From Phycisphaera sp. (GTDB taxonomy: Bacteria; Planctomycetota; Phycisphaerae; Phycisphaerales; Phycisphaeraceae), in the NCBI GenBank assembly GCA_016125215.1, contig WGMF01000026.1, positions 1 to 64,000 of the forward strand: a stretch of 64,000 nt of DNA. The letters run 5' to 3'. How positions within the stretch are numbered: position 1 is the first letter of the stretch; every line of letters starts with the position of its first letter. The translations under genes were made by a program, and so were the position numbers. The notes below the pieces were generated by a model that saw only the letters and a program-made list of their open reading frames with translations, did not search any database and was not told where the DNA came from. Shown in pieces: positions 2,609-39,271 of this stretch.

Positions 2609-2743
2609 TGACCTGCTCCTTGAACTGATCGTGGAGGCTTGCTTCTTGAATGCCTGTCGCTCTTGCAACGGCTTTTAGTGAAGCAAGTAGCCCGGGCCCC
2701 GGGTAGGGTGGGCCCAGCAAGTAGCATATGCCGGGCGATTGGG

Positions 2744-2776
2744 GTAGGGTGGGCCAAGTCTGCGCGGCCCACCATT
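2744..2776 (+). repeat. Left REP inverted repeat of the transposase unit
   Basis: This 33-base sequence is the exact reverse complement of 3418-3450, by direct comparison. It contains its own short stem (GTGGGCC pairing with GGCCCAC). A second partial copy (GTAGGGTGGGCCC) begins near 2703. Confidence 0.85.
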
Positions 2777-2862
2777 GATCGTACGGCTGTCCGCTTGGTT
2801 TGCAAAACCTATCATCCTCCGGCCTAACGGTCTCCACACTCAATCATGTGTACGATCAATTC

Positions 2863-3390
2863 ATGCCGGACTATCGTCGTAACCGTGTGGCGGGTGGAAC
2901 CTATTTCTTCACGGTCAACCTGCTTAACCGTCGTGAGGGGCTGCTCGTCGAGAACATCGACGCGCTGCGGGGTGCGATGGACCGGGTGATGTCGGCCCAT
3001 CCGTTTCACATTGATGCCATGGTGGTGCTGCCGGATCACCTGCATTGTGTGTTGACTTTGCCGACGGGGGATGATCGGTATGACACGCGGTGGAACCAGA
3101 TCAAGGGTTTATGCTCACGGTCGCTGCCATCGGATGAGAGCCGATCACGGAGTCGGCGGAAAAAATGTGAGCGGGGCATCTGGCAAAGACGGTATTGGGA
3201 ACACACGATCCGTGACGAGGGCGACTACGCGGCGCACGTGGATTACATCCATTACAACCCGGTGAAACATGGTTACGTGGCGCGGCCTGTGGATGGGCCA
3301 CACTCGTCGATCCATCGTTTCATCAAGCTCGGCATACTCGATGCGCACTGGGGCACATCGGGGATTGATACGACGTTGAACTTGGAATGA
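2863..3390 (+). CDS. REP-associated tyrosine transposase (RAYT, IS200-like Y1 family)
   Basis: A 175-residue single-domain HUH transposase counted from MPDYRRNRV, the usual N-terminus of the family. The metal-binding His pair is HLH at residues 59-61. The catalytic tyrosine lies in YIHYNPVKHG (Tyr128 most likely). The longer upstream frame has no support. RAYTs are single-copy chromosomal relatives of IS200/IS605 transposases that process palindromic REP DNA. Perfect 33-base inverted repeats lie about 90 bases upstream and 30 bases downstream, making a REP-RAYT-REP unit. Lys and Arg are abundant (SRSRSRRKK) in the middle. It appears intact. Confidence 0.9.
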   Translation: MPDYRRNRVAGGTYFFTVNLLNRREGLLVENIDALRGAMDRVMSAHPFHIDAMVVLPDHLHCVLTLPTGDDRYDTRWNQIKGLCSRSLPSDESRSRSRRKKCERGIWQRRYWEHTIRDEGDYAAHVDYIHYNPVKHGYVARPVDGPHSSIHRFIKLGILDAHWGTSGIDTTLNLE

Positions 3391-3417
3391 ACGGGGTTTG
3401 TGTCACGCCCGCGTGTG

Positions 3418-3450
3418 AATGGTGGGCCGCGCAGACTTGGCCCACCCTAC
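3418..3450 (+). repeat. Right REP inverted repeat of the transposase unit
   Basis: This is the exact inverted partner of 2744-2776. The two repeats bracket the transposase and are the likely recognition hairpins. Confidence 0.85.
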
Positions 3451-3474
3451 GGAAGAAAACCCGAGCAACTCGCC

Positions 3475-4470
3475 TCACCCCAACATATCCTTCACCGTTG
3501 CGCGTTCTTCGACTAGTTCTTTGTTCGTCGCGGCGAGTTTGCCTTTGGCGAAGTCGTCCATGGTGTAGGACGTGATGGGTTCGTAGCCGCCGGGGGTGTC
3601 TTTGAGCGATGTCGTCTTCACCGGCATGCCGGCCCAGACGTTGGGGTCGAAGCCGTAGGCGCCGTTGCTCTTGACGGCGATGCTGTGAACACTTCCGGGG
3701 GTGACCAGACTGTGCACGTGATCGACGAGCGCATTGGCGGCGGAGGCGGCGGAGGAGAGGCCGCGGGCGGCGATGATGGCGGCGCCGCGTTTGCCGACGG
3801 TCTCGCAGAACTCGCCTTGGAGCCAGGCGTGGTGGCCGATGACTTCGGGGACGGGCTTGCCGTTGATCTTGGCGTGGGCAAAAGCGGGGAACATGGTGGG
3901 GGAGTGGTTGCCGTAGATGAAGATGTCTTTGACATCCTTGACATCGACGGCGGCTTTCTTGGCCAATTGGGCGGCGGCGCGGTTCTGGTCGAGGCGGACC
4001 ATGGCGGTGAAGCGTTCCTTGGGCAGGCGTTTGGCCTGCGAGGCGGCAATCATGCAGTTGGTATTGGCGGGGTTGCCGACGACGACGACGCGGGCGTCCT
4101 GGGCGGCGACGGTGTCGATAGCTTTGCCCTGACCGACGAAGATCTTGCCGTTGTCTTTGAGCAGGTCGGCTCGCTCCATGCCCGGGCCGCGCGGCTTGGC
4201 ACCGACGAGGCAGCACCACGAGGCGTCCTTGAAGCCCTTGTTGGGGTCGTCGGTGAGGACCATGCCACGCAGGAGCGGGAAGGCGCAGTCTTCGAGTTCC
4301 ATGGCGACGCCTTCGAGGGCTTTCATGGCTTTTTCGTTGGGGATTTCGATCATCTGGAGGATGACCGGCGTGTCGGGGCCGAGCATTTGGCCGGAGGCGA
4401 TGCGGAAGAGCAGGGCGTAACCGATCTGGCCGGCGGCGCCGGTGACTGCGATGCGAACGGGGGCTTGCAT
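3475..4470 (-). CDS. mdh: Malate dehydrogenase
   Basis: A 331-residue cytosolic NAD-dependent dehydrogenase of the TCA cycle, interconverting malate and oxaloacetate. The Rossmann glycine motif is [13 protein letters not shown] near the N-terminus. The NAD-binding middle is [12 protein letters not shown], and the catalytic histidine lies in [12 protein letters not shown]. Length matches the cytosolic MDH type. The ATG at 4470 is preceded by AAAGGA; longer frames upstream run into non-coding DNA. It diverges from the isopropylmalate dehydrogenase-like gene across about 270 bases. Confidence 0.95.
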
Positions 4471-26064: not shown

Positions 26065-26424
26065 TCACGGGAAAGGCAGGCCCATGATCCGTACGATGCG
26101 TAGGTTATAGGTTACCACCATTTTCATGAAAAGGGGTTCGAGCAGCGCAAGAGGCATCACGATCACCGCCAGGATAAGCATGTATTCCACGCTCAGCGCG
26201 CCGCGGTCGTCACGCAGGATTTGCACGGCTTTTTGCCACAGAGGGGACAAGCACGTATGGCCGGGTATGGAAAGCCCCGCCCCTTTGAAGGGGAGGGGTT
26301 GGGGAGGGGATGTACCGCGTGATATTCCCATAGATTCCCCATTGCGGTGCCTCGGAACACCCTCCCCCAGCCCCTCCCTCTGAAGAGGGAGGGGGGTTCT
26401 CATGCGGGCGGTAAGGGTTTTCAC
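26065..26424 (-). CDS. Flp-type pilin with a palindromic element inserted in its leader (copy 3)
   Basis: The mature part begins at DDRG followed by ALSVEYMLILAVIVMPLALL, a classic Flp motif with Glu +5 and Tyr +6. A short tail (MVVTYNLRIVRIMGLPFP) follows. The frame starts with GTG at 26424 overlapping the TGA of the CpaF gene (GTGA), so it is coupled to it. Residues about 10-50 are encoded by a 123-bp dispersed element, giving a leader near 75 residues instead of the usual 10-25. Peptidase cleavage after DDRG would discard the insert. Alternatively translation starts at a weak internal GTG near the mature part. Confidence 0.65.
   Translation of the reverse strand: MKTLTARMRTPLPLQREGLGEGVPRHRNGESMGISRGTSPPQPLPFKGAGLSIPGHTCLSPLWQKAVQILRDDRGALSVEYMLILAVIVMPLALLEPLFMKMVVTYNLRIVRIMGLPFP
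26275..26397 (-). repeat. Dispersed palindromic element, copy B (in frame, pilin leader)
   Basis: Its arms read CCCCTTTGAAGGGGAGGGG on one side and CCTCCCTCTGAAGAGGGAGG on the other, around a variable core. By hand count it is 123 bp, that is 41 codons. It is open in the pilin frame on the minus strand and encodes a peptide with PLPLQREGLGEG and PQPLPFKGAG. Confidence 0.85.
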
Positions 26425-27596
26425 TTGGCCCCCTTTCCCGTGGGAGGGGCCTGTGGCGCGAAAAGTTCAGCGGTGAGTTTCACGCGGTCGGTCAGGCCCA
26501 TCCACGCCAGGTCGTCGGCAAAGTGTGGCCGGCGACCGGTCCACGTCAGTAGCTGCGCATCGGTCGTGAGGTTGAACAGGTCGTGCGTGAAATAGGTGTT
26601 GCGCACGTCGTCGTAACCGACCTCGCTGACGTGGGTGATGAGCCTGCGGCCGGTGTGCATGCGGTTGGTCTGGATGACTAGGTCGATGGCGGAGGCAACC
26701 TGGCTTCGCAGGGCGTTGAGCGGCAAGCCGACGTCGGCGAGCAGCGCCATGGTTTCGAGCCTTCGGCAGGCGTCGGCGGGGGTCGAGGCGTGCAGCGTTG
26801 CCAGCGAGCCTCGGTGTCCGCTGGTCATGGCCTGGATCATGTCGAGCGCTTCGCCCCGCCGAACTTCGCCGACCACGATGCGGTCGGGCCTCATGCGCAG
26901 CGACGTGACGAACAGGTCGCGCACGGTGATCTGACCCTTGCCATACGGGTCGGCCGGCCGGGCCTCCATCTGCACGACGTGTTCCTTCTGGACCTGCAGC
27001 TCGCGGGTGTCTTCGATCACAACGACGCGCTCGTCGTCGTGGAAGGCGGACGAGAGGACGTTGAGGAGCGTGGTCTTGCCCGAACCCGTGCCGCCGCTGA
27101 CGACGATGTTCTGGTGCGCCGCGACAGCCAGGAGCAAAAACTCCATTGCCTGCGGGGTGATGGCGCTGTTCTTGATGAGAAAGTCGGGGCTTGCGGTGGA
27201 CCGGCTGAACCTTCGGATGTTGATCGACGTGCCGCAGTCGGCAATGGGCGAGAGGACGATGCAGACGCGCGAGCCGTCGGGCAGCCGACCGTCGAGCAGG
27301 GGTCGGTCCTGACCGATGGTGTTGCCCACGAACTGCGCGACGTTGTTGGCCGCGGCGAGCAGGTCGCGCTCGGAGGCAAAGCGGACGTTGGTCTTTTCGA
27401 TCTTGCCCTTTCGCTCGACGAAGACCGCGTCGGGCCCGTTGACCATGACCTCGGAGACCGAGGGATCGTTCATGAGCGGCACGAGAGGCGCGAGGAAATA
27501 CTCGAGGCTGACCCGGTAGGCCCGACCCCCGTCGTCCCCGCTCGCCGCGTCCGGTTGCGCGTCGCCCGGCTCGATGGTGGCGGTGCTTTCAGCCAT
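26421..27596 (-). CDS. CpaF/TadA-type pilus assembly ATPase
   Basis: A 391-residue secretion ATPase. Walker A is GGTGSGKTT at about residue 166. The Asp box is VVVIEDTRELQ, and the His box region is MIQAMTSGHRGSLATLHA. The N-terminal domain has SEVMVNGPDAVFVERKGK, typical of CpaF. No FHA domain is present, in contrast to the second ATPase at 37367. It energises pilin export and assembly at the inner membrane. Its TGA overlaps the GTG of the downstream pilin. Confidence 0.93.
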   Translation of the reverse strand: MAESTATIEPGDAQPDAASGDDGGRAYRVSLEYFLAPLVPLMNDPSVSEVMVNGPDAVFVERKGKIEKTNVRFASERDLLAAANNVAQFVGNTIGQDRPLLDGRLPDGSRVCIVLSPIADCGTSINIRRFSRSTASPDFLIKNSAITPQAMEFLLLAVAAHQNIVVSGGTGSGKTTLLNVLSSAFHDDERVVVIEDTRELQVQKEHVVQMEARPADPYGKGQITVRDLFVTSLRMRPDRIVVGEVRRGEALDMIQAMTSGHRGSLATLHASTPADACRRLETMALLADVGLPLNALRSQVASAIDLVIQTNRMHTGRRLITHVSEVGYDDVRNTYFTHDLFNLTTDAQLLTWTGRRPHFADDLAWMGLTDRVKLTAELFAPQAPPTGKGAK

Positions 27597-27629
27597 AGGT
27601 TCGTGACGGTGAGTGGGAATGCGCTGGGA

Positions 27630-29813
27630 TTAGTTGCTGTCTCGGATGCGCAGGTTGATGTCGGCCCGGGTGATGCCGCGGGGGTCGAGGTCGAAGGGGA
27701 CCTTGTCGCCCAGGGCCGAGATTTTGCGTAAGAAATCGTCGTAATCGCCCTCGTATCGGAGGTTGAAGACGCCCATGCCGCCCTCGACGCCGGCCTCGTG
27801 TTTCATGAAGTCCATCTGCTGGATGCCGGGGACGTTCTGCTTGAGCCCGTCCATGACAGCCAGCACGTCCTTGGGCGTTCTGGCGTTGAAGACGGTCACG
27901 GTCATCACGCGCGGCGGGACCCACACGTCCCACATCTGCGAGCAGATGTGACCGGCGATGTAGTCGGCTGCGTCGTCAACGAGTTTCTGGAGCTGCTGGT
28001 CGTCGTAGACCTGCGCCGAGGCGTAGGAGATGCTGCCGAGGATCACGCCGTTGGCCAAGCTGATCGCGCGGACGGTGAACCCGAGCGTCGGTTTTTCATT
28101 GACCCCGACCGAGCCACGACCGCCCTGCGCGCCGGCCACGGCCAGGGTGCTGCCCGCGCGTGTGATATAGCTGTACCCGATGATGACGACATCGAGGCCG
28201 GCTTCCTTGGCTTCCTGCTGGAGCAGTTGTTCAAGCTCTTGTTCGTTGAACATCCCGCCGGCGTTGGCGGCCTTTTTGAGGATGCGGTTCTTCACAAACG
28301 TCGGGTCCACCGTGGTCAAACCCATCTTGAGGAAGCGCTGTGAGATCCCGTCTTCGACCAGGCGTGTGGTGAACTGCTGCTTCTTGCGTTCCTTGAGACG
28401 CTCGTCCTGTTCCTGTCGCCACTCCTTGTCCGCGTCGAGCAGGACCTTGGCCATGTTGGCCGGGTCGTTGCCGCCGCCGTTGGGTGAGCCGACGACGACG
28501 TTGACGGACGTGCCGGTGTTGGGGCCGGCGGCCGCGGGTTGACCGGGTGCGGCGTTCTGGGTCGCGGCCTGGGCCTGCGCCTGCGCGGCGCTCGAGGGGC
28601 TGGTGTGGCCACCCAGCGGGCGGTTGTCGTCGAGGTCCTTGGATTCATCCTCATCGATCCGGCGGTTGAGCACGACGCCGATCTTGGGCGAACCCTCCTT
28701 GCGGTAGACATCGAGGAACTTGCCCTGCAGGCACTTGGCCAGCGGGTCGTCACCGGAGAAGTCGACAAGATAATCCGTGAGCACGTCACGCAGTTCGTCC
28801 TTGTCGCAGTCTCCGTCAGCGGTAACGGAGGCCCCGCCCGCGCGACCGAAGCGCACCATGACCTGGCCGGCCTCGGAATCGGTGAGCGTCACCTCGCGGT
28901 CCAGGGCTTTCTTGGCCGCGTCCAGCACCGCCTCGCTCAATTCGAGCTGGCTGCCGGCGTATTTGACACGGAACTCGGCGATGGTCTCGACCCGGCCGCG
29001 GTTGTTGCTGGCGGTGGTGCCGCGCTTCACGCCACGGTCACGGACGGAGTCGACGCCACGCACGTCTTCGAGTGCGCGACGGAACGCGATGAGGTCGCGT
29101 GCCTCGGGCAGGTTCATGGCCAGGAGCGTGTAGGTCGTCACGTCGGTCGACTTGGCGGCGCCGTATTGCTCGATGAACTTTCTTGCGACCTGCTGGGCGT
29201 AGAGCTTGACGGTGGCCGCGTCGTTGCCCCGCATCCAGTCGAAGGCAAAGGTCGTGACCTTGCGCCCGCGGACCAGGTCCATGCCGTCAACCGTGACGCG
29301 GTAAAGCCCGCCGCGCGCCTTGACATCCGCCGAATCAACGAGCTGGATCGAGAGGATAAAGTCGCACCGCATCTTGTTGCGGACCAGTTCGAGGATGCGG
29401 GCCTCGTTCTGGCCCTCGAGCACTTTATCGTTGCGCAGCTCGGCGATGGCGGCGGCGCTGGGGTCGACCAGGTCGAGGTCAGCGTTCTGGAGGAGCACCT
29501 CCTGCACCGAGCGTTCCATGGCCATGGCGTCGGGGGAGTTGCCGATGTCGGTCAGAAGCGCCTTGCCCACGAAATCGCCGAACGAGAGCAGGTCGCTGTT
29601 GCGCCCGGTGACGATCATGATCGGCGGTTCCCCCGCGTTCTCGTAGGCCTTTTTGAAGGCCTCCACGTCGGGTGCGACGAAGTTGTTTTGGTTGTTGTTG
29701 GGGACCGGGTCGCTCTTGTATTGCGCCGCCACGGGGCAGGCGGTCACAGCCCAGGTCAGAGCGATCGCCAGCACGCCAGCGACACGATTGCACACCATGC
29801 GGTTGTCAGTCAC
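27630..29813 (-). CDS. Large exported protein of unknown function next to LpoB-like lipoproteins
   Basis: A 727-residue exported protein. The N-terminal segment (VLAIALTWAVTACPVAAQ) can be read as a lipobox (VTAC) or an ordinary signal peptide. Two similar regions, about 60-230 and 480-650, look like the LpoB/CsgG-type alpha/beta fold: each has a predicted nucleotide-fold-like strand pattern, a conserved FIEQYG or YIAGHI helix and a D-rich loop. This is my inference only. The middle is low-complexity (AQAQAQAATQNAAPG). GTG at 29813 has GAGGTGA upstream. The context of four envelope lipoproteins suggests a periplasmic or outer-membrane complex. Confidence 0.6.
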   Translation of the reverse strand: MTDNRMVCNRVAGVLAIALTWAVTACPVAAQYKSDPVPNNNQNNFVAPDVEAFKKAYENAGEPPIMIVTGRNSDLLSFGDFVGKALLTDIGNSPDAMAMERSVQEVLLQNADLDLVDPSAAAIAELRNDKVLEGQNEARILELVRNKMRCDFILSIQLVDSADVKARGGLYRVTVDGMDLVRGRKVTTFAFDWMRGNDAATVKLYAQQVARKFIEQYGAAKSTDVTTYTLLAMNLPEARDLIAFRRALEDVRGVDSVRDRGVKRGTTASNNRGRVETIAEFRVKYAGSQLELSEAVLDAAKKALDREVTLTDSEAGQVMVRFGRAGGASVTADGDCDKDELRDVLTDYLVDFSGDDPLAKCLQGKFLDVYRKEGSPKIGVVLNRRIDEDESKDLDDNRPLGGHTSPSSAAQAQAQAATQNAAPGQPAAAGPNTGTSVNVVVGSPNGGGNDPANMAKVLLDADKEWRQEQDERLKERKKQQFTTRLVEDGISQRFLKMGLTTVDPTFVKNRILKKAANAGGMFNEQELEQLLQQEAKEAGLDVVIIGYSYITRAGSTLAVAGAQGGRGSVGVNEKPTLGFTVRAISLANGVILGSISYASAQVYDDQQLQKLVDDAADYIAGHICSQMWDVWVPPRVMTVTVFNARTPKDVLAVMDGLKQNVPGIQQMDFMKHEAGVEGGMGVFNLRYEGDYDDFLRKISALGDKVPFDLDPRGITRADINLRIRDSN

Positions 29814-29954
29814 GACTCACCTCGCGGGATAGGGGTATCGATCCATCTCGTCCCGGACACACCGGTACACACGTCGCCTCGGCCCACAACCGGGCCCGAC
29901 CAATCACAAGCCACGCCGTCGGCCTGCGGCCGTCTGTCGCACCAACCCGCCGTG

Positions 29955-30371
29955 TCACTTGGCGGAACGCACTTCCAGCCGCCAGCGGGTGGACTGCGTA
30001 TCGATGGCGGTGGCTTCGATGTATCGTTCGACCTTGGGCGGCAACTGGATGTAACGCCAGCCGCCGATCGCGTCGCGCGGGCTCATCGAGTCATCGAAGA
30101 ACATGAATTGGTACTGGAGGTTGATCGCGTAACTCTCGACGTTGCGGACCGCCTGGACCACACGCATGGGGCGGACGCCGTCGGTCGGGGTGACCCGCGC
30201 GGTGCCGAACACCAGGCCGTGCTTGAGCGAGGAGTCCACAACGTTGATGGGGTACTCCTCAGTGGTGAGCTTGTCGGTCCTTCCCGCGGTGGGCGGCGAC
30301 TTGCAACCGGTCATCGCAAACAAGCCCAAGGCCAGAGCCAGAAGGGAGAGTGTTTTGAGTCGGGTCATCAT
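29955..30371 (-). CDS. YcfL-like lipoprotein (DUF1425)
   Basis: A 138-residue lipoprotein. The signal peptide ends in a lipobox (AMTGCKSPP). The single domain, with VRPMRVVQAVRNVESYAI and YQFMFFDDSMSPRDAIGGW, matches the DUF1425/YcfL fold. In enterobacteria ycfL lies beside lpoB; here two LpoB-like genes lie nearby. ATG 30371 is supported by GGAG upstream; the frame's earlier TTG is not. Confidence 0.75.
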   Translation of the reverse strand: MMTRLKTLSLLALALGLFAMTGCKSPPTAGRTDKLTTEEYPINVVDSSLKHGLVFGTARVTPTDGVRPMRVVQAVRNVESYAINLQYQFMFFDDSMSPRDAIGGWRYIQLPPKVERYIEATAIDTQSTRWRLEVRSAK

Positions 30372-30473
30372 GAGCAAATACTCCGCAAAATAGGCTGCTT
30401 AATCCACCTTAAGACCGTCAGGATACCGCAATCAGACTGCCATGATACCGCGCCGGGCGGATGTCCCCAACGG

Positions 30474-32216
30474 TTATTGAGCGGTTGCGCTCTTGGCGGT
30501 GGGGACCGGGTGCAGGATGGCGTTGTATTGGGCCTGCAGCTCACGGACCTGCCTGCTGCTGGCTTTGTAGGGGGCGTGTTTCTGCCCGAACAGTCGGGCA
30601 TAGCCGATCGTCCCGGGCAGGGGGGCAACAAGCGAGGAGCCGCCCTCGAGCACGTGCAGGGCGGGCGTGCCGTTGTCGTCGCCGACGGTCAGGCCGATCT
30701 TTTCGAGGGTGTAGAGTTCCTGGAGTTGTTCGACGGTCAAGTCCTTGAGGAAGCCCGCGCGCTGGTAACGGTCGAGGGCCTCCTGTGTGGGCGAGCAGAC
30801 ACAGTCCCCGCCGAGGATGTAGGGCAGGGCGACCGAGCCGGCCTTGGGGTCGTAGTCGTTGCAGTAAAGGACCCGGCCGCTCATCGCCCATTGCGGGGGC
30901 TGGGGGGTGGCCTGCTTCGGGCTGTTTGAGGTTGAGACGAGTTGGATGAACCGCAACTGCGCGGTGGGGCCTTGGGGCGGGGAGAGGTCGGTCAGGATGA
31001 TCGAGGATTGCGGCGCGTCAGCCACCTGGAGCTGGAGCGTCGAGCCGGGCGCGGAAATCATGGCCGGGACGATGTAGAAGCGCTGCGGCATGAGTTCGCA
31101 GTAGCGCGTGTCGGCGTGGGCGGAGGCCTTCATCAACGCGCCGGCGAGCATCATGCCCGCGCCGATCATCGCGGCGTTGCCGCTGTTGGAGTAAGCGCCG
31201 TAGCCTGCCACGCCCGCCCCCGCCGCCATCAGCGCGGTGCCGACGTAGGACTTGGCCTTACGCATGTCCTGCAGGTTGTTCCACATGTGGTCCTGCGCCA
31301 TGGCGTTGACATCGCAGATTTCGGGGTAGCTGTAGGCGTTTGAGCCGATGCTCACGACCAGCGGTGAGCCGGTGCTGGGGGTCATGGGCTGGAAGCTGGC
31401 AATGGCCTTGTCCATGCCGGTGCCGATCTTCTGTGGGCCCTGGCCGAAGCCCACGACGAGTACCGTGTTGTAGCTGCCGGTGCGGAGTTCTTCGATCAGC
31501 CCGCCGAGGTCGGGCCTCAGCGCCATGGCGTGCTGGAAGTTTTCATTGGCTTCGGTGTGGTCGCTCTCGCCGACGGCAATGTCCTGCTGCCGCGCAGCCA
31601 GGCCGGTCATGATGTAACCCAGTGCAAAGTTCGTCTCGACGTCGATCGGTTTTTCAAACGTGGCCTCGGCGATGTTTTTGTCCTGAACAACGTCCTGGGT
31701 GGAGAGGCTCTTGCCGTCGTCGGTGGTTTTGACCGCCTTGAGGTGGAAGAGCGACTGGCTGGCCACGACGCGGGCGTTGTCCCATTCGCCCTTGGTGGCC
31801 AGGTTCATGGCGACGAAGTTGATGGCCAGGGCCTGCTCGAAGGGTTCGCCTTTCCAGATCTTGGTGTCTTCGTTGAGGAGCACCGCGCCCCACTGCCTGC
31901 CCTTGTTTACGTCCTGCTGGGTGAGCAGGTCGTAGAGGTTGTTCCACGCGGCGTTGGGGTGGTCGGGTGCGTAGCCGTCGCCGAGGGTGACCATGCCCAG
32001 CCGCATCCAGTTGAGCGCGTAGTTGCGGTCGGGGTTCTGGGCTGTGGACTTGGGGTTGACCTTGAGGTCGACGTGCTTGCGCTGGTAATCCCGTCCGAGG
32101 CCCATTTCGCCTGAGTAATAGGTCCTGATGAGGTTCACGTCGGGCTTGGCGACGCAGCCCCAGGACATCAGCGACACGAGCGCGACAACACCCAACAGGC
32201 GAAGCTTTGCGGACAT
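30474..32216 (-). CDS. COG3014-like exported lipoprotein with helical repeats
   Basis: A 580-residue protein. A signal peptide with a likely lipobox (MSWGC) is followed by a TPR-like helical region (WNNLYDLLTQQDVNKGRQW, NFVAMNLATKGEWDNARV). A short hydrophobic stretch (AAGAGVAGYGAYSNSGNAAM) and a beta-rich C-terminal part complete it. This resembles COG3014, a partner of LpoB and YcfL in many genomes, as I recall. AAGGAAA precedes ATG 32216. The role is likely structural or regulatory in envelope assembly; unproven. Confidence 0.6.
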   Translation of the reverse strand: MSAKLRLLGVVALVSLMSWGCVAKPDVNLIRTYYSGEMGLGRDYQRKHVDLKVNPKSTAQNPDRNYALNWMRLGMVTLGDGYAPDHPNAAWNNLYDLLTQQDVNKGRQWGAVLLNEDTKIWKGEPFEQALAINFVAMNLATKGEWDNARVVASQSLFHLKAVKTTDDGKSLSTQDVVQDKNIAEATFEKPIDVETNFALGYIMTGLAARQQDIAVGESDHTEANENFQHAMALRPDLGGLIEELRTGSYNTVLVVGFGQGPQKIGTGMDKAIASFQPMTPSTGSPLVVSIGSNAYSYPEICDVNAMAQDHMWNNLQDMRKAKSYVGTALMAAGAGVAGYGAYSNSGNAAMIGAGMMLAGALMKASAHADTRYCELMPQRFYIVPAMISAPGSTLQLQVADAPQSSIILTDLSPPQGPTAQLRFIQLVSTSNSPKQATPQPPQWAMSGRVLYCNDYDPKAGSVALPYILGGDCVCSPTQEALDRYQRAGFLKDLTVEQLQELYTLEKIGLTVGDDNGTPALHVLEGGSSLVAPLPGTIGYARLFGQKHAPYKASSRQVRELQAQYNAILHPVPTAKSATAQ

Positions 32217-32286
32217 GGATTTTCCTTTTTTAGAAATGGTTTTGATCCCGAAAATGCCCGTAAAAATGGGCCGAAAATGTGTTGGC

Positions 32287-32862
32287 TCAATCGATCAACA
32301 TGCCCTTGGCCTGACGCTTGAGGTCGACCGAATCGTCCCAGACCTCCTCGCGCGTCCGCAGGTCGACGATCTTGCAGCGGATGTAGTAGAGGTCCGCGCG
32401 GTCGTTGACGTAGCCCTCTTTATTGCGTGCGACACGGGTGCTGGAGAAGAACGTCGCGCTCATCGTGTGCGTCGGCATCACGGAGGCCGGCTCGTCGGGG
32501 ATGTTGCCCGCCTTGCGCAGCTCCGCCTGGCGTTCGGGCGGCAGTTGGAAGCTGATGTTCCGCGTCCGCTTGAGGTCCATCACCGGGATCGAACTCTTGA
32601 TGCGATACATAATCATCCACTGCTCCGCGGTGGGGATCACGTCGGAGCTGCGGTTCTCCGCCTTGTTGATGGAGATGATGATCGGGGGCGAATTGGCGTC
32701 GCGCGAGGTGAGAAAATCACTGGCCGCCAGCTTGGCGGCGAACTGGTTGATGGTGATGTCCATGTCGTCCTGCGTCAGGGCCGTGGTCTTAGGCCCGGAG
32801 GACGAACACCCCGCGGTGAGCAGTGCCAGTGCCAGCAGAACAAACGTGGATCGCCTGACCAT
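32287..32862 (-). CDS. LpoB-like lipoprotein (first)
   Basis: A 191-residue lipoprotein. The lipobox is LLTAGCSSS. The LpoB/PF13036-type domain shows PIIISINKAENRSSDVIPT, MIMYRIKSSIPVM and a C-terminal TREEVWDDSVDLKRQ. In E. coli LpoB activates PBP1b from the outer membrane; a similar activator or assembly role is inferred. It lies in a same-strand block with the second LpoB-like gene. Confidence 0.75.
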   Translation of the reverse strand: MVRRSTFVLLALALLTAGCSSSGPKTTALTQDDMDITINQFAAKLAASDFLTSRDANSPPIIISINKAENRSSDVIPTAEQWMIMYRIKSSIPVMDLKRTRNISFQLPPERQAELRKAGNIPDEPASVMPTHTMSATFFSSTRVARNKEGYVNDRADLYYIRCKIVDLRTREEVWDDSVDLKRQAKGMLID

Positions 32863-32907
32863 AGTGTTCCCCGATGGTGTTGCGGACCCGATTGAGGTGG
32901 ATACGGT

Positions 32908-33570
32908 TTATTTGAGGGACAGGTCGTAGGACTTGGCCCAGATCTCTTCGCGTGTCGTGGGGTTGACGAGCTTGAACTCGTAGAAATACGTGCGTCGGCT
33001 GCCGCGGCTGGCTTCCATGAACTCGCCGTAGAGGATCACCATGTCCTGCGGGTTGTACGTGGCCGACCCGCTGCCCGTGTTCGGGCCGGTTTCCTGAAGG
33101 ATGTCCCCGTTGTCGCCGCCGCCGCCGTTGAGCCTCTGAAGGTCGTTGTCCACCCGGCTGCGACTCTCGACGAACATGAGGTTGTTCCGGATGACCGGGC
33201 TGCTGCGGAGCTTGGCCTTGAGCCGTGTCACGATCATGCGAAAGTCGTTGGACGGCGTGGAGGTCATGTTGTTGATGGTGCCCACTTCAAGCACCTTGCG
33301 TGAGTTGGCCCCCGCCAGGACATCGACGATGTCGCCGGCCAGTTGCTCGGCGGCGGTGTCGGTGGCTTCGAGCAGCGCGGGCAGGCTGATGTAGCCGGAG
33401 TTGCGGTCGGCCTGGGTCGTCTCGTAGGGGTCGATACGACCGCCGCTGTCGCCCCGGGGGGCCGAGGTGCAACCGGCGGCCAGCGCGATGGCGGACAGCG
33501 CCAAAGCCCAAGCCGTCATGCCGCCGCCGAGTCTGCGAAAGTTCCGCGTCTGTGGGGTGGGTGTTTTCAT
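32908..33570 (-). CDS. LpoB-like lipoprotein (second)
   Basis: A 220-residue lipoprotein. A signal peptide (WALALSAIALAAGC) is followed by a Gly/Asp-rich spacer and the LpoB-like domain with VLEVGTINNMTSTPSNDF, a YGEFMEASRG strand and the end TREEIWAKSYDLSLK. That end closely parallels the first LpoB-like protein (TREEVWDDSVDLK), so the two are paralogues. GAGG lies upstream of ATG 33570. It is the first gene of the five-gene envelope block. Confidence 0.75.
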   Translation of the reverse strand: MKTPTPQTRNFRRLGGGMTAWALALSAIALAAGCTSAPRGDSGGRIDPYETTQADRNSGYISLPALLEATDTAAEQLAGDIVDVLAGANSRKVLEVGTINNMTSTPSNDFRMIVTRLKAKLRSSPVIRNNLMFVESRSRVDNDLQRLNGGGGDNGDILQETGPNTGSGSATYNPQDMVILYGEFMEASRGSRRTYFYEFKLVNPTTREEIWAKSYDLSLK

Positions 33571-33925
33571 GGTGATGACCTCGTGGAAGGTTCTGTGTCT
33601 GGAAATGACCGGCTTTTCACGCCCTCGTTTTCAAAAGATTAAGTCTAATCCGTCGTGACTTTATTTGTCAACAGCTTCACGGGGAATGTGAACAATAAAA
33701 GATATTGACGCCCCCGCGCAGCGGGTTTAGACTCTGGACTTACGACGCCCGTGAGTCGTCTGTGTGACGTAGTGTGTCGTTGTGAGTCGTTTTTCAGAGT
33801 GTCGAGACGACGCGGAGCGGGGTCTTTCGTAGGCCATTCTCAGACAGGCCGGACACCTGTGAAACTTGTCGTGGCATATCCGTAGTCCGATGGCGTTTGA
33901 ATATCCCAAGAGACGCAGCCGACCA
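33571..33925. other. Divergent promoter region of the LpoB-like and ankyrin genes
   Basis: A stretch of 355 bases, AT-rich between 33620 and 33710, with no gene. GTGAGTCGT occurs twice, at 33751 and 33782. A plus-strand promoter candidate lies at 33705-33733. Start sites for both directions probably lie here. Confidence 0.4.
33705..33733 (+). promoter_or_regulatory. Candidate sigma-70-type promoter of the ankyrin gene
   Basis: TTGACG (-35, five of six matches) and TAGACT (-10, four of six) are separated by exactly 17 bases and lie about 190 bases before ATG 33926. The spacer contains a small CCGC-gca-GCGG palindrome. Confidence 0.35.
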
Positions 33926-35260
33926 ATGACACGCCGGCTTTACAGAACAGCCCCGGCAGCGCGCAACCCCGTGCGTTCGGTGGCGGTTTGTCTGTGGCTT
34001 TGCATCGCTTTGTTCTTGAGCCTCACCGTGGCGGCGGCGTCGGCGGATCAGACAAGCCAGCCCGCCGCAGCCGATTCGGTCTTCTCGCTTGCCACCGCGC
34101 AGCTCATCAATGCCGCTTCGGCCGGGGATGACAAAGCGATCCAGTCCGCGCTCAAGGCCGGCGGAAACGCCAACGAGAAAGGCCGGAACGACGCCACACC
34201 CTTGATGTGGATGATCTATCAGAATGACACGAAGGGCTTCGACCGTTTGCTTGCGCTCGGGGCTGACCCGTCACTTGAAAACAACCTGGGCGATTCGGCG
34301 AGTGTGCTGGCGGCCGCGTCGAAAAACGCCGACTTCGTGCAATCGCTCATCCAACACAAAGCCGACCTCACCGCTCAGGCCACCGACGGCACAACCCCCT
34401 TGATGCGGGCCGCGGCTTTGGGTTCGATCCTGTCCGTGCGTCGGCTGATCGACGCCGGCGTGCCCGTCAACACACAGGACAAGAAAGGCCGCACAGCTCT
34501 GATGTACGCGGTGCTCCGTGGCGACCGCGCGATCACCCGTACGCTGCTCAACGAGGGGGCCGACCCTTTGATCGAGGACACGCAGGGCCTTTCTGCCATA
34601 CGCTACGCCTCGATGTCTGAAGATGCCGAGCTTGTGAAGATGCTCAAGGAGCGTCAGTCGAACCCGACGCCCAAGGATGTCTTTGACGACCCGCTTGCGG
34701 CCGGCCTGGCTACGGCGGCAGCCAAGAACGACATCGCAGGCGTCGAAGCGCTACTCGAAAAAGGTGCCAAGCCCAACACGCTCGGCCGCGCCGGGCTGAC
34801 GCCTTTGATCTGGGCCGGCATCGAGAAGGCGGACAAAGGTTTCTTGAGACTCCTCGACGCCGGCGGCGACCCGAACATCATCAGCAGCAACGGCACCTCG
34901 GGCACGTTCGTCGCGGCGGGGTTCATTGACACGCAGGTGCTCGCACGAGTGCTCAAAGCCGGCGGCAAACCCGACATCCAAGGCCCCGGCGGGATGACGC
35001 CGATCATGTACGCCGCGCAGCAGGGGCTGGCGTCGAACATCACGCTCCTGGTCGAAGCCGGTCACGCCAATGTCAACGCACAGGACGCCCTGGGCCTGAC
35101 CGCGCTGCACTACGCCGTGCTCCACCGACACAAAGAGGCCGTGGCTGCGCTCGTGGCTCACCACGCGGACAAGACGATCAAAGACCAGCGCGGGCTGACG
35201 CCGGTGGACGTGGCCACGCTGTTGAAACTCGATGAGATGTTGAAAATCCTCAACCCCTAA
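33926..35260 (+). CDS. Exported ankyrin-repeat protein
   Basis: A 444-residue protein. A signal peptide (SVAVCLWLCIALFLSLTVAAA) precedes about ten ankyrin repeats, for example GRNDATPLMWMIYQND, DGTTPLMRAAALGS and GRTALMYAVLRG. A spacer near residue 250 (PTPKDVFDDPLA) divides two repeat blocks. Ankyrin stacks bind proteins; the partner is unknown. It precedes a lipase-like gene by about 20 bases, so the two are probably cotranscribed. Confidence 0.85.
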   Translation: MTRRLYRTAPAARNPVRSVAVCLWLCIALFLSLTVAAASADQTSQPAAADSVFSLATAQLINAASAGDDKAIQSALKAGGNANEKGRNDATPLMWMIYQNDTKGFDRLLALGADPSLENNLGDSASVLAAASKNADFVQSLIQHKADLTAQATDGTTPLMRAAALGSILSVRRLIDAGVPVNTQDKKGRTALMYAVLRGDRAITRTLLNEGADPLIEDTQGLSAIRYASMSEDAELVKMLKERQSNPTPKDVFDDPLAAGLATAAAKNDIAGVEALLEKGAKPNTLGRAGLTPLIWAGIEKADKGFLRLLDAGGDPNIISSNGTSGTFVAAGFIDTQVLARVLKAGGKPDIQGPGGMTPIMYAAQQGLASNITLLVEAGHANVNAQDALGLTALHYAVLHRHKEAVAALVAHHADKTIKDQRGLTPVDVATLLKLDEMLKILNP

Positions 35261-35282: not shown

Positions 35283-36488
35283 ATGGTTCACGGGACAGCG
35301 ACATTACGGGGATTTCTTGCAAGACTTGGCCGGCGTTTGACGCGGTCGGCGGCGAGTGTCCTGTTGCTGGCGGGCCTGCTCGTCGGGGTCGTGTTGGCCG
35401 CGGGGATCGTCGGCAAGGCGATGCTCGACCGGGCACGCCTGAGCGAAGCGGTCTACGAAGTCGGCAAAGCGCCGGACGGCTGGCAATTCCTCGAAGGCGG
35501 TGAGAAAGACAGCGGCTTCAAGTGGGGCGTTTACGAACGCACGCTCGACGACGGCACCAAGGAGCGCGTGCTGGCCATCGCCGGGACGGACGTGGGCTTC
35601 GGCAGCGTCGGTCAGGTGCAGGACACGCTCCGTGACGGCTGGACCGATGCCACTCAAGCTCTCAAAGGGCCCGACGGTCTTCCTCCCACGCAATACACCG
35701 AAGCGCTCATGGAGACGCTCCGACAGATTCAATACGCCAACCGCGACGGCGTGCCCCTCACGCTCACCGGCCACTCGCTCGGCGGCGGCCTTTCACAATA
35801 CGCCAGCCTGATGACCGGCGTCCCTGCCACCGTCTTCAACTCCGCGCCGCTCGGGCCCTCCACACGCGCCCAGCTCCCGCGCGACGCCGATGTCAGCAAG
35901 ATCACCAACGTCCGCATCGACGGCGACCCCGTCTCCGAATGGGCACAGCACGTCCGCGGTGGCACGCAATACGGCCAAGAAGTCGTGATCCACCCCGCGC
36001 CCGGAGCGCCGGGCATCCTCCCCGACGACGAGCGCTCGCTCAACGGTTACGTCCGCTCACGCTACGGCGATGACCTGGCGGACTTCAACAAGCTCCGCAA
36101 TGAAACGCCATCCGCCCTCGACTTCGGCAACTGGCTCAAGAACCAGCGTGATAAAATCGACAAGGCCGGCGACATCATCAACCCCCGCCGCGCCGCGGAG
36201 GTCCTCGCGCAATACGCCAAGGATAAAGCGACCGATCTCTACAACCGGCACGTCATGACTACCGTCATCCCCGCGCTCGAAAACCAACTGGGCGTCACCC
36301 CCCAGCCCCCGGCAATCGCAGGCCCAACCGCGTCGGCCACGAACCCCAACACGCCGCCGTCCCACAACACGGGCCAGCCCCAACAGGCTGACACGCCGGG
36401 CGGTGACAAGCCCGCAACGGGTAGCCGATACAACGGGCCGAGCATCGAGGAACTGATCGAGAAAGACCTGCTCGTGCCCACGCCTTGA
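35283..36488 (+). CDS. Membrane-anchored class 3-like lipase/hydrolase
   Basis: A 401-residue protein. An N-terminal helix (VLLLAGLLVGVVLAAGIVG) anchors it, with the catalytic part outside the cytoplasm. The nucleophile elbow is GHSLGGG with Ser165, and VLAIAGTD forms the oxyanion strand, as in DUF2974/class 3 lipase relatives. An Asp (IDGDPVSEW) and a His (HPAPGAPG) are placed to complete a triad. The C-terminal tail is Pro/Gly/Asn-rich. The substrate is not known; phospholipid or ester hydrolysis is inferred. Confidence 0.75.
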   Translation: MVHGTATLRGFLARLGRRLTRSAASVLLLAGLLVGVVLAAGIVGKAMLDRARLSEAVYEVGKAPDGWQFLEGGEKDSGFKWGVYERTLDDGTKERVLAIAGTDVGFGSVGQVQDTLRDGWTDATQALKGPDGLPPTQYTEALMETLRQIQYANRDGVPLTLTGHSLGGGLSQYASLMTGVPATVFNSAPLGPSTRAQLPRDADVSKITNVRIDGDPVSEWAQHVRGGTQYGQEVVIHPAPGAPGILPDDERSLNGYVRSRYGDDLADFNKLRNETPSALDFGNWLKNQRDKIDKAGDIINPRRAAEVLAQYAKDKATDLYNRHVMTTVIPALENQLGVTPQPPAIAGPTASATNPNTPPSHNTGQPQQADTPGGDKPATGSRYNGPSIEELIEKDLLVPTP

Positions 36489-37366: not shown

Positions 37367-39271
37367 ATGCGCGTCAAGACGTTCGACACCATCAAGGGTT
37401 CGACCACGCCCTACGAGGCGGGCCAGTCCGGGTTCACCATCGGGCGTGGTGAGACGTGCCAGGTGCAGCTCAACTCGCGCTTTGTCTCCCGTGTCCACGC
37501 CCGGGTCGAGCGCGCGGGCGACGGCTGGGAGATCGAGGTCCCCGACGGCGCGGAACAGATCGAGATCGACGGCCAACCTTTAGCCGGCGGTCAGCGCCGC
37601 GCCCTCTCGCCGATGAGCCGGCTGCGCATTGCGACGTTCGAGATCACGCTCGACGCCGCCCCCGTCGAGGTGCAGGCACCCGAAGAGGTGCGCATCAACG
37701 AGCTGGTCGGCCTCGTCCACAGCCGACTGCTGCGGAGGATGGACCTGCGGGCCGGCAGCATGGCGTCCACCGAGGTCTCGGCCCAGCGCGTCGAACAGGT
37801 CAACGGATTTCTCGACGAACTGCTCCTGGGCGACCTGGCGGACGACGTGTTCGAGTCCGACCTCACGCCCTTGATCGTCGGACGATTCGTGCGATGGAAA
37901 CTCGAAACGCAGTCCACCGAGACAAGGGGCAGCCACGCCACCGACCTCTTCCAATCGATGGGCTACAACCACACGATGGAGCAGTCCGCCGGCGACCAGC
38001 TCGTCGCACCCATCACGCAGCAGATCGGCTTTGTCCCCGAAGACCTCGACCCCGACCGCCTCGTCCAGACACAGCGCCGCATCGACGAACAGGTCCGCAA
38101 TCTCCTGCCCAGCCTCCTGAACAACGCCAAGACCTACGCCGTGCTGCAGTTCCTCAAGAAGCAGCTCTACGACATCATCTTCGGCTTAGGCCCGCTGCAG
38201 GACCTGATCGAAGACACGCGCGTGAGCGAGATCATGGTCGTGCATCCCGAGCTGATCTATGTCGAGATGAAGGGCCGGGTCGTGCGGACGGGTCGGCGGT
38301 TCCTCTCGCCCGCCGCGGCGGTGTCGGCGATCGAGCGGATCGTCGCGCCCCTGGGTCGGCGGATCGACCGGGCCTCGCCCCTTGTGGACGCACGCCTGCG
38401 CGACGGCTCGCGCGTCAACGCCGTCATCGAGCCGCTGGCCATCAAGGGGCCTTGCATCACCATCCGCAAGTTCCCGATCAAGAGCGTCGGCGTCGAGGAC
38501 ATGGTCCGCTGGGGCGCGGTGACCAGGCAGCTTGTCGAACTGCTCCGCGCGTCGGTCGAGTACCGCGCCAACATGATCGTGGCCGGCGGCACCGGGTCGG
38601 GCAAGACCACACTGCTCAACGTGCTCAGCGGCATGATCCCCCCGCACGAGCGCGTGGTGACGATTGAAGACGCGGCTGAACTGCGCATGCAACAGGAACA
38701 CGTCGTGAGCCTCGAGACGCGGCCGGCCAGCGCCGAGGGCACCGGCGCCAAGACCATCCGTGACCTTGTGAAAAACGCGCTGCGTATGCGGCCGGACCGC
38801 ATCATCGTCGGCGAGTGCCGCGGCGAAGAGACGATCGACATGCTCCAGGCCATGAACACCGGGCACAGCGGGTCGATGACCACCCTCCACGCCAACAGCG
38901 GCTACGACGTGATCTCCCGCCTCGAGACGCTCGTGCTCATGGGTGCGAACCTGCCCCTGCCGGCCGTGCGCCGCCAGATCGCCGAGGCGGTGAACCTGAT
39001 TGTTTACGTGCAACGGCTCACCTCGGGCAGACGGCTCGTGAGCCAGGTGGCCGAGGTCACACGCATCCACCCGCACACCGGAGAGGTCGAGGTCCGCGAC
39101 ATCATGAACCTCGACACGACCACCGGCCAGCCCGTGCTCAAGCCCACGGGCTACATGCCCACGTTCCTGGGCGAGATGGTCGAGCGCGGCTTCCTAAAAC
39201 TCGAAACATGGTTCGGGCAGGAACCGCTTGAAACGAAAACCACCGGGCAAACAGGGGACAAGTCCGCATGA
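37367..39271 (+). CDS. FHA domain fused to CpaF-type pilus ATPase
   Basis: A 634-residue protein. Residues 1-95 form an FHA phosphothreonine-binding domain with intact key residues (TIGRGETCQVQL and VSRVHARVE). A CpaF N-domain follows (SEIMVVHPELIYVEMKGR). The ATPase has Walker A GGTGSGKTT near residue 406, an Asp box VVTIEDAAELR, and MLQAMNTGHSGSMTTLHA. Domain linkage suggests that phosphorylation by the kinase encoded downstream regulates pilus ATPase docking. This ATPase differs from the FHA-less one at 26421. It overlaps tadB by ATGA. Confidence 0.93.
   Translation: MRVKTFDTIKGSTTPYEAGQSGFTIGRGETCQVQLNSRFVSRVHARVERAGDGWEIEVPDGAEQIEIDGQPLAGGQRRALSPMSRLRIATFEITLDAAPVEVQAPEEVRINELVGLVHSRLLRRMDLRAGSMASTEVSAQRVEQVNGFLDELLLGDLADDVFESDLTPLIVGRFVRWKLETQSTETRGSHATDLFQSMGYNHTMEQSAGDQLVAPITQQIGFVPEDLDPDRLVQTQRRIDEQVRNLLPSLLNNAKTYAVLQFLKKQLYDIIFGLGPLQDLIEDTRVSEIMVVHPELIYVEMKGRVVRTGRRFLSPAAAVSAIERIVAPLGRRIDRASPLVDARLRDGSRVNAVIEPLAIKGPCITIRKFPIKSVGVEDMVRWGAVTRQLVELLRASVEYRANMIVAGGTGSGKTTLLNVLSGMIPPHERVVTIEDAAELRMQQEHVVSLETRPASAEGTGAKTIRDLVKNALRMRPDRIIVGECRGEETIDMLQAMNTGHSGSMTTLHANSGYDVISRLETLVLMGANLPLPAVRRQIAEAVNLIVYVQRLTSGRRLVSQVAEVTRIHPHTGEVEVRDIMNLDTTTGQPVLKPTGYMPTFLGEMVERGFLKLETWFGQEPLETKTTGQTGDKSA

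Follow-up and report, generated by a model that had tools for sequence, protein, structure and literature searches.

What is the function of a block of five genes for exported proteins that lies, in a Phycisphaera sp. genome, between the two halves of a Tad pilus gene cluster, and does it belong to that pilus? The window, by which we mean the whole 64,000-nucleotide stretch of DNA analysed, comes from one contig (C51 in our numbering) of a 4.04 Mb assembly that is 98.25% complete, and at 27630-33570 it holds five consecutive open reading frames, all on the minus strand, in the order LpoB1, LpoB2, C3014, YcfL and P727. An earlier note on this DNA had described them as an envelope block with two LpoB-like lipoproteins and a 727-residue partner, and had suggested that the block might be the missing outer-membrane or peptidoglycan part of the pilus. 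The description of the locus holds, as reading-frame positions, our own codon-usage gene caller and conservation in other genomes agree on all five genes, and divergent Tad halves do flank the block in the window; the suggested role in the pilus found no support. We consider it an even chance that these genes form an operon whose products make up a lipoprotein complex of the outer membrane, acting at the interface with the peptidoglycan and having no part in Tad, in which P727 would be a clade-specific periplasmic adaptor. From LpoB1 to P727, the genes are separated by gaps of 45, 70, 96 and 141 nucleotides. A consensus scan, which is the sole basis for the promoter-like sites, found 4 of them on the two strands of 26300-34000 versus 0.9 expected; both minus-strand sites lie upstream of the five-gene block, and TTGACA-18-TAGACT (33642-33671, minus strand) lies upstream of LpoB1.

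The first two genes encode LpoB1 (32908-33570, minus strand, 220 residues) and LpoB2 (32287-32862, minus strand, 191 residues). Taken alone, LpoB1 gives a weak match to the LpoB model PF13036 (E 0.0034, under the Pfam cut-off), and LpoB2, C3014 and P727, each searched singly with the Pfam and NCBIfam models, gave no convincing family match. At the family level the same model is matched at E<=0.01 by 18 of the 23 members of the LpoB1 family and by 12 of the 22 members of the LpoB2 family, and since the two family profiles match each other in hhalign at Prob 99.1 and E 6e-19, LpoB1 and LpoB2 are paralogues within the LpoB family. The lipobox cysteine is invariant in the family alignments of all four predicted lipoproteins (Cys34 in LpoB1, Cys19 in LpoB2, Cys21 in C3014 and Cys25 in YcfL), which, together with the family-level PF13036 matches, bears out the earlier description of two LpoB-like lipoproteins. 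YcfL (29955-30377, minus strand, 140 residues), for which a TTG start was called with ATG codons at positions 3 and 4, matches DUF1425 (PF07233) at 4.8e-8, with 33.2 bits against a cut-off of 28.3, and all 21 members of its family match the same model at E<=0.01. The pair resembles the PBP1B activator LpoB of Escherichia coli in sequence family, in being lipoproteins and in sharing an operon with a YcfL gene, the LpoB and YcfL genes being neighbours in E. coli too; it differs in that there are two paralogues, joined to C3014 and P727. Likewise, YcfL behaves as an ordinary DUF1425 protein in its match above the cut-off and its place near LpoB, but here the block around it is larger and includes a C3014 protein that is a fusion.

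The third gene encodes C3014 (30474-32216, minus strand, 580 residues), which we take to be a COG3014-like lipoprotein, a label that comes from the earlier note; its description draws on the alignment, the distribution of its relatives and a low-confidence structure model, and the window protein itself matched no Pfam or NCBIfam model. Its N-terminus is helical and TPR-like, TPR_2 being matched by 7 of the 30 family members, and residues ~315-367 form a conserved Gly/Ala-rich hairpin of moderate hydrophobicity (best 19-residue Kyte-Doolittle mean 1.05-1.97 across the 30 members). Certain other planctomycete genomes encode the C-terminal part of about 120 residues (~440-560) in a gene of its own. 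Outside the order, C3014 reading frames are mostly ~380-450 residues long and align chiefly with profile positions up to 410-440, and in G312, G169 and G327 (genomes in our numbering) a small gene of its own, not far from the core, encodes the C-terminal part; such genes lie at 2658-3542 of locus L080, 4045-4527 of L082 and 8179-8763 of L083. The relatives of ~420 residues in other classes presumably have the length and motifs of COG3014 proteins. Unlike that family, C3014 of the present lineage is a gene fusion with an extra C-terminal part, and because the two are fused here, the C-terminal part is probably tied to C3014 in function.

The last gene encodes P727 (27630-29813, minus strand, 727 residues, GTG start), which fold, internal repeat and distribution characterize as an exported, apparently non-lipidated periplasmic protein; its N-terminus is signal-like and, in an alignment read by eye, its relatives have no conserved lipobox cysteine. 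P727 consists of two units, ~60-220 plus ~226-322 and ~365-633 plus ~635-725, and in a seven-member alignment the first half aligns in register with the second over 218 columns (Prob 98.4, E 7e-15), while one reversed and five column-shuffled halves used as controls gave Prob 0.0-1.7. In an AlphaFold2 model of modest confidence, a similar order of elements occurs twice: an alpha/beta domain, in which three strands come in succession and a helix closes the fold, and then a ferredoxin-like beta-alpha-beta-beta-alpha-beta domain. The best Foldseek match was an LPHT-ring chain (8z5n, E 7.2e-4), and the top matches included GNA1162, PelC, LpoB, FlgT, TolB and CsgG as well as unrelated chains. We take the LPHT-ring chain to be FlgT. 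Structural alignment with VIA-align, which covered mainly residues 351-633, placed residues 365-632 closest to FlgT (3w1e; Z 11.6, 3.9 A over 149 residues), followed by TolB (11.1), PelC (10.5), CsgG (10.0) and LpoB (7.8). Among the families listed by these two programs, the module at 365-632 therefore has the TolB-N/CsgG-type fold known from FlgT, the N-terminal domain of TolB, PelC, CsgG, GNA1162 and LptE (Z 7.7-11.6); for FlgT of the Vibrio flagellar H ring, it is the TolB-N-like middle domain that P727 appears to share. The first module is assigned to the same class through the internal repeat that it forms with the second, rather than by a fold match. P727 is thus a tandem duplication of a TolB-N/CsgG/LpoB/FlgT-type domain plus a ferredoxin-like domain, and differs from other proteins of this fold in that the module occurs twice, with a ferredoxin-like domain after each copy, and in having neither a sequence-level family match nor an evident lipid anchor.

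The structure prediction and fold search proposed in the earlier note thus support its idea of two LpoB/CsgG-type modules as far as the fold is concerned, the model matching best FlgT, TolB, PelC, CsgG, GNA1162 and LpoB, whereas similarity to LpoB in sequence was not found. In profile-profile comparison neither P727 nor its halves resembled LpoB1, LpoB2, YcfL or C3014, and when the P727 profile was run against PDB sequences, only chance matches came up (best E 0.1). The CsgG model PF03783 was matched by 0 of 7 P727 members at E<=0.1, and at the same threshold none of the 7 matched a FlgT family, in a library whose content of FlgT models was not checked. Matches of P727 to the Pfam families TTI1 and LysX were weak and confined to single members, and were taken as chance.

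How widely the five genes occur differs between core and adaptor. C3014 is present in 30 of 61 near relatives, the own genome included, and its profile matched in 60 of 392 genomes of the phylum; a plasmid search for C3014 gave no match. We compared 31 loci of the order that have C3014, counting the window and leaving out the duplicates L056 and L057: an LpoB-type gene stands beside C3014 at 28 of them, LpoB1 together with LpoB2 at 20 and YcfL at 22, and of the three loci without LpoB, two have C3014 at a contig end. We picked 20 further planctomycete loci from the 60 genomes with matches, 17 outside the order and three inside, and found an LpoB-type gene near C3014 in all 20 and YcfL in 8; at these and the other retrieved loci genes were called with our own codon-usage program, so that starts are approximate, and in L090 and L098 C3014 was placed by genome search where no gene was called. 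A core of LpoB-type and COG3014-like genes, often with YcfL/DUF1425, is widespread in planctomycetes, and in the order of this genome the LpoB gene is duplicated and the COG3014-like protein extended by the fused C-terminal part. P727 is rare and was found in 7 genomes, namely 6 of the 61 near relatives (own genome included) and G364, from another family of the same order. In 6 of these 7 its gene comes immediately after YcfL or C3014, and in G029 it stands apart from the core. In the 392 phylum genomes its profile gave three clear matches, of which two had been found before, and a further two, in G181 and G109, that were marginal, covered the first ferredoxin-like part only and were not counted as carriers. 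In named records, relatives occur in Phycisphaeraceae bacterium OFTM12 and in a Planctomycetota metagenome-assembled genome from LacPavin. Small lipoprotein-like genes follow P727 at 6477-6860 of L023 (weak DUF3568 match, 5.9e-4) and 9170-9571 of L039, and YcfL is followed, in two genomes from outside the order, by lipoprotein-like genes that give weak Gly-zipper matches (5313-6086 of L086 and 5505-6044 of L087). No description of this block was found in the titles and abstract openings returned by a literature search that fell short of most subscription journals.

We propose that LpoB1, LpoB2, C3014 and YcfL, whose location is predicted from their signal sequences, would form a lipoprotein complex of the outer membrane at the peptidoglycan interface. 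P727 would most likely be an oligomerizing adaptor that docks on these lipoproteins, and it may, by analogy with FlgT, PelC and TolB in their own machines, extend the complex through the periplasm. Several points weigh against this proposal. The complex is deduced here from genes, homology and single-chain models, of which that of P727 has a mean predicted local distance difference test score (pLDDT) of 53 and a predicted template modelling score of 0.35 from a three-sequence alignment, and that of C3014, with a pLDDT of 45, was used for secondary structure only and had no fold match at E<=0.001. P727 lacks profile similarity to LpoB1 and LpoB2, homology to LpoB is the one ground on which a link to peptidoglycan would stand, and among the neighbours listed, genes from outside the block, those for peptidoglycan among them, recur in six block loci at most. 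Finally, because P727 and the TadA gene are 33 nucleotides apart, they may be co-transcribed in this genome.

The alternative that fares best, although we regard it as unlikely, is that the block encodes an export assembly similar to CsgG or PelC, a periplasmic or outer-membrane ring that passes an unnamed protein or polysaccharide. CsgG and PelC are indeed among the top fold matches of P727, the Gly/Ala-rich hairpin of C3014 is conserved, and the block of G327, from another class, contains a lipoprotein-like gene of the CsgG family (7616-8182 of L083; PF03783, 7.9e-6, above the Pfam cut-off). However, no substrate or barrel gene recurs near the block among the neighbours listed, P727 has no evident lipid anchor, and the C3014 hairpin is just moderately hydrophobic. 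Somewhat less probable still is a flagellar basal-body accessory, resembling an H/T ring or basal disk, in which P727 would act as FlgT. FlgT is the top structural match in both Foldseek (through the 8z5n LPHT ring) and VIA-align (3w1e), and FlgI is present in 62 of the 62 genomes tested; because it is universal, FlgI does not discriminate in favour of this explanation. On the other hand, 31 of 61 relatives carry FlgI without a match to C3014, no flagellar gene recurs at the block loci among the neighbours listed, and TolB, PelC and CsgG lie within ~1.6 Z of FlgT. With one fold common to FlgT, PelC and CsgG, and with FlgI in all 62 genomes, both the flagellar ring and the export assembly stay viable.

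The suggestion of the earlier note, that the block supplies the Tad pilus with its outer-membrane or peptidoglycan part, is highly improbable. Its position between the two Tad halves, with the TadA/CpaF ATPase gene (26421-27596) beginning 33 nucleotides past the end of P727, speaks for such a role, and among the 61 relatives there is a weak trend for RcpC to be commoner with C3014 (13 of 30 positive versus 6 of 31 negative genomes). However, the block is independent of Tad in distribution and synteny, and the neighbourhood in this window is all that the two share. A CpaF-class ATPase was found at E below 1e-30 in 20 of 31 C3014-positive genomes; that of G012 lies among genes of type IV secretion-like appearance, one of which looks like VirB4, and was not counted as Tad. 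The block is accordingly conserved in 12 of 31 C3014-positive genomes without a Tad-context ATPase of this class, nine of the 12 at least 90% complete, and G012 (96% complete) and G015 (94% complete) carry block and P727 with no RcpC match. Conservation of the block where Tad is absent, which the earlier note had named as an outcome that would refute its idea, is thus what was observed. The 30 other block loci of the order, whose flanks are incomplete where contigs end, have no clear flanking Tad genes among the genes listed; L021 has one weak ATPase match near the block (E 8e-10) with a PilB-type look. Moreover, the colinear Tad clusters of G017 and of contig C14 of the own genome are without the block, and since five secretins are encoded elsewhere in the genome, Tad needs no missing outer-membrane part. 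With RcpC, the CpaF-class ATPase, synteny and block-free Tad clusters all pointing the same way, a Tad partner role was rejected, a negative outcome that should save effort; at most, a lineage-specific recruitment to Tad may apply to this genome.

Tad clusters in these bacteria often have two CpaF-type ATPases, a plain one of ~370-390 residues and one of ~620-634 residues with an FHA domain, usually on the same strand and ~7-12 kb apart. The second cluster of the own genome (C14, 51970-64483) is colinear, and in the window the pair is divergent (26421-27596, minus strand, and 37367-39271, plus strand), with the block between. Genes for an ankyrin-repeat protein (33866-35260) and a weakly class-3 lipase-like protein (35283-36488) separate the block from the plus-strand Tad half.

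What the LpoB-type lipoproteins act on is a question of its own. It has been reported that LpoB of E. coli docks on the UB2H domain of the penicillin-binding protein (PBP) PBP1B, and that as an activator it has co-evolved with this domain (PMC3060616). PF00912, the model for the GT51 domain that class A PBPs share with MtgA, was searched in 29 genomes, 19 C3014-positive and 10 negative, and gave no match in the own genome nor in 27 of the 29 (own included; 26 of 28 relatives), nor in 17 of the 19 block carriers with the own genome counted in, whereas 10 of 14 control genomes matched. The two exceptions, G029 and G047, have PbpC-like enzymes, for which TIGR02073 was the best model at a score below its cut-off, and no UB2H match. 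Class B PBPs and SEDS proteins were found in 29 of 29 genomes, two and one, respectively, in the own genome. At C12, 40217-42411, the sole SEDS gene found in that genome lies beside a class B PBP gene; most relatives have two, and an assembly gap is possible. A loss of class A PBPs in planctomycetes has been reported earlier, in a paper whose main text does not contain the word LpoB (PMC8406291). The new point is that a conserved operon keeps its LpoB-type lipoproteins where no PBP1B partner was found. That LpoB1 and LpoB2 are ordinary activators of a PBP1B-type synthase modulated by P727 is the least probable explanation of all, since PF13036 matches, lipobox and YcfL neighbour notwithstanding, no UB2H-bearing or other GT51 synthase was found in this 98.25% complete genome, nor GT51 in 17 of 19 carriers, the exceptions being PbpC-like.

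Since no class A PBP glycosyltransferase was found, the canonical activation of PBP1B by LpoB looks impossible here, and the LpoB-type proteins are hardly PBP1B activators; they would most likely serve in attachment of the outer membrane to peptidoglycan or in control of SEDS-class B PBP synthases. The bolder form of this proposal, that the LpoB pair, C3014, YcfL and P727 make up an outer-membrane complex that reaches through the peptidoglycan and regulates SEDS-class B PBP synthases in bacteria without class A PBPs, we put forward tentatively, as a less probable claim than that of the complex itself. LpoB-type lipoproteins are conserved where SEDS proteins and class B PBPs alone apparently make the wall, and those parts of the block that are fused or duplicated point to likely interaction partners. 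If the bolder form were true, control by LpoB-type proteins would have an earlier origin and a wider reach than textbooks give it, with the LpoB-PBP1B pair of E. coli as a late specialization.

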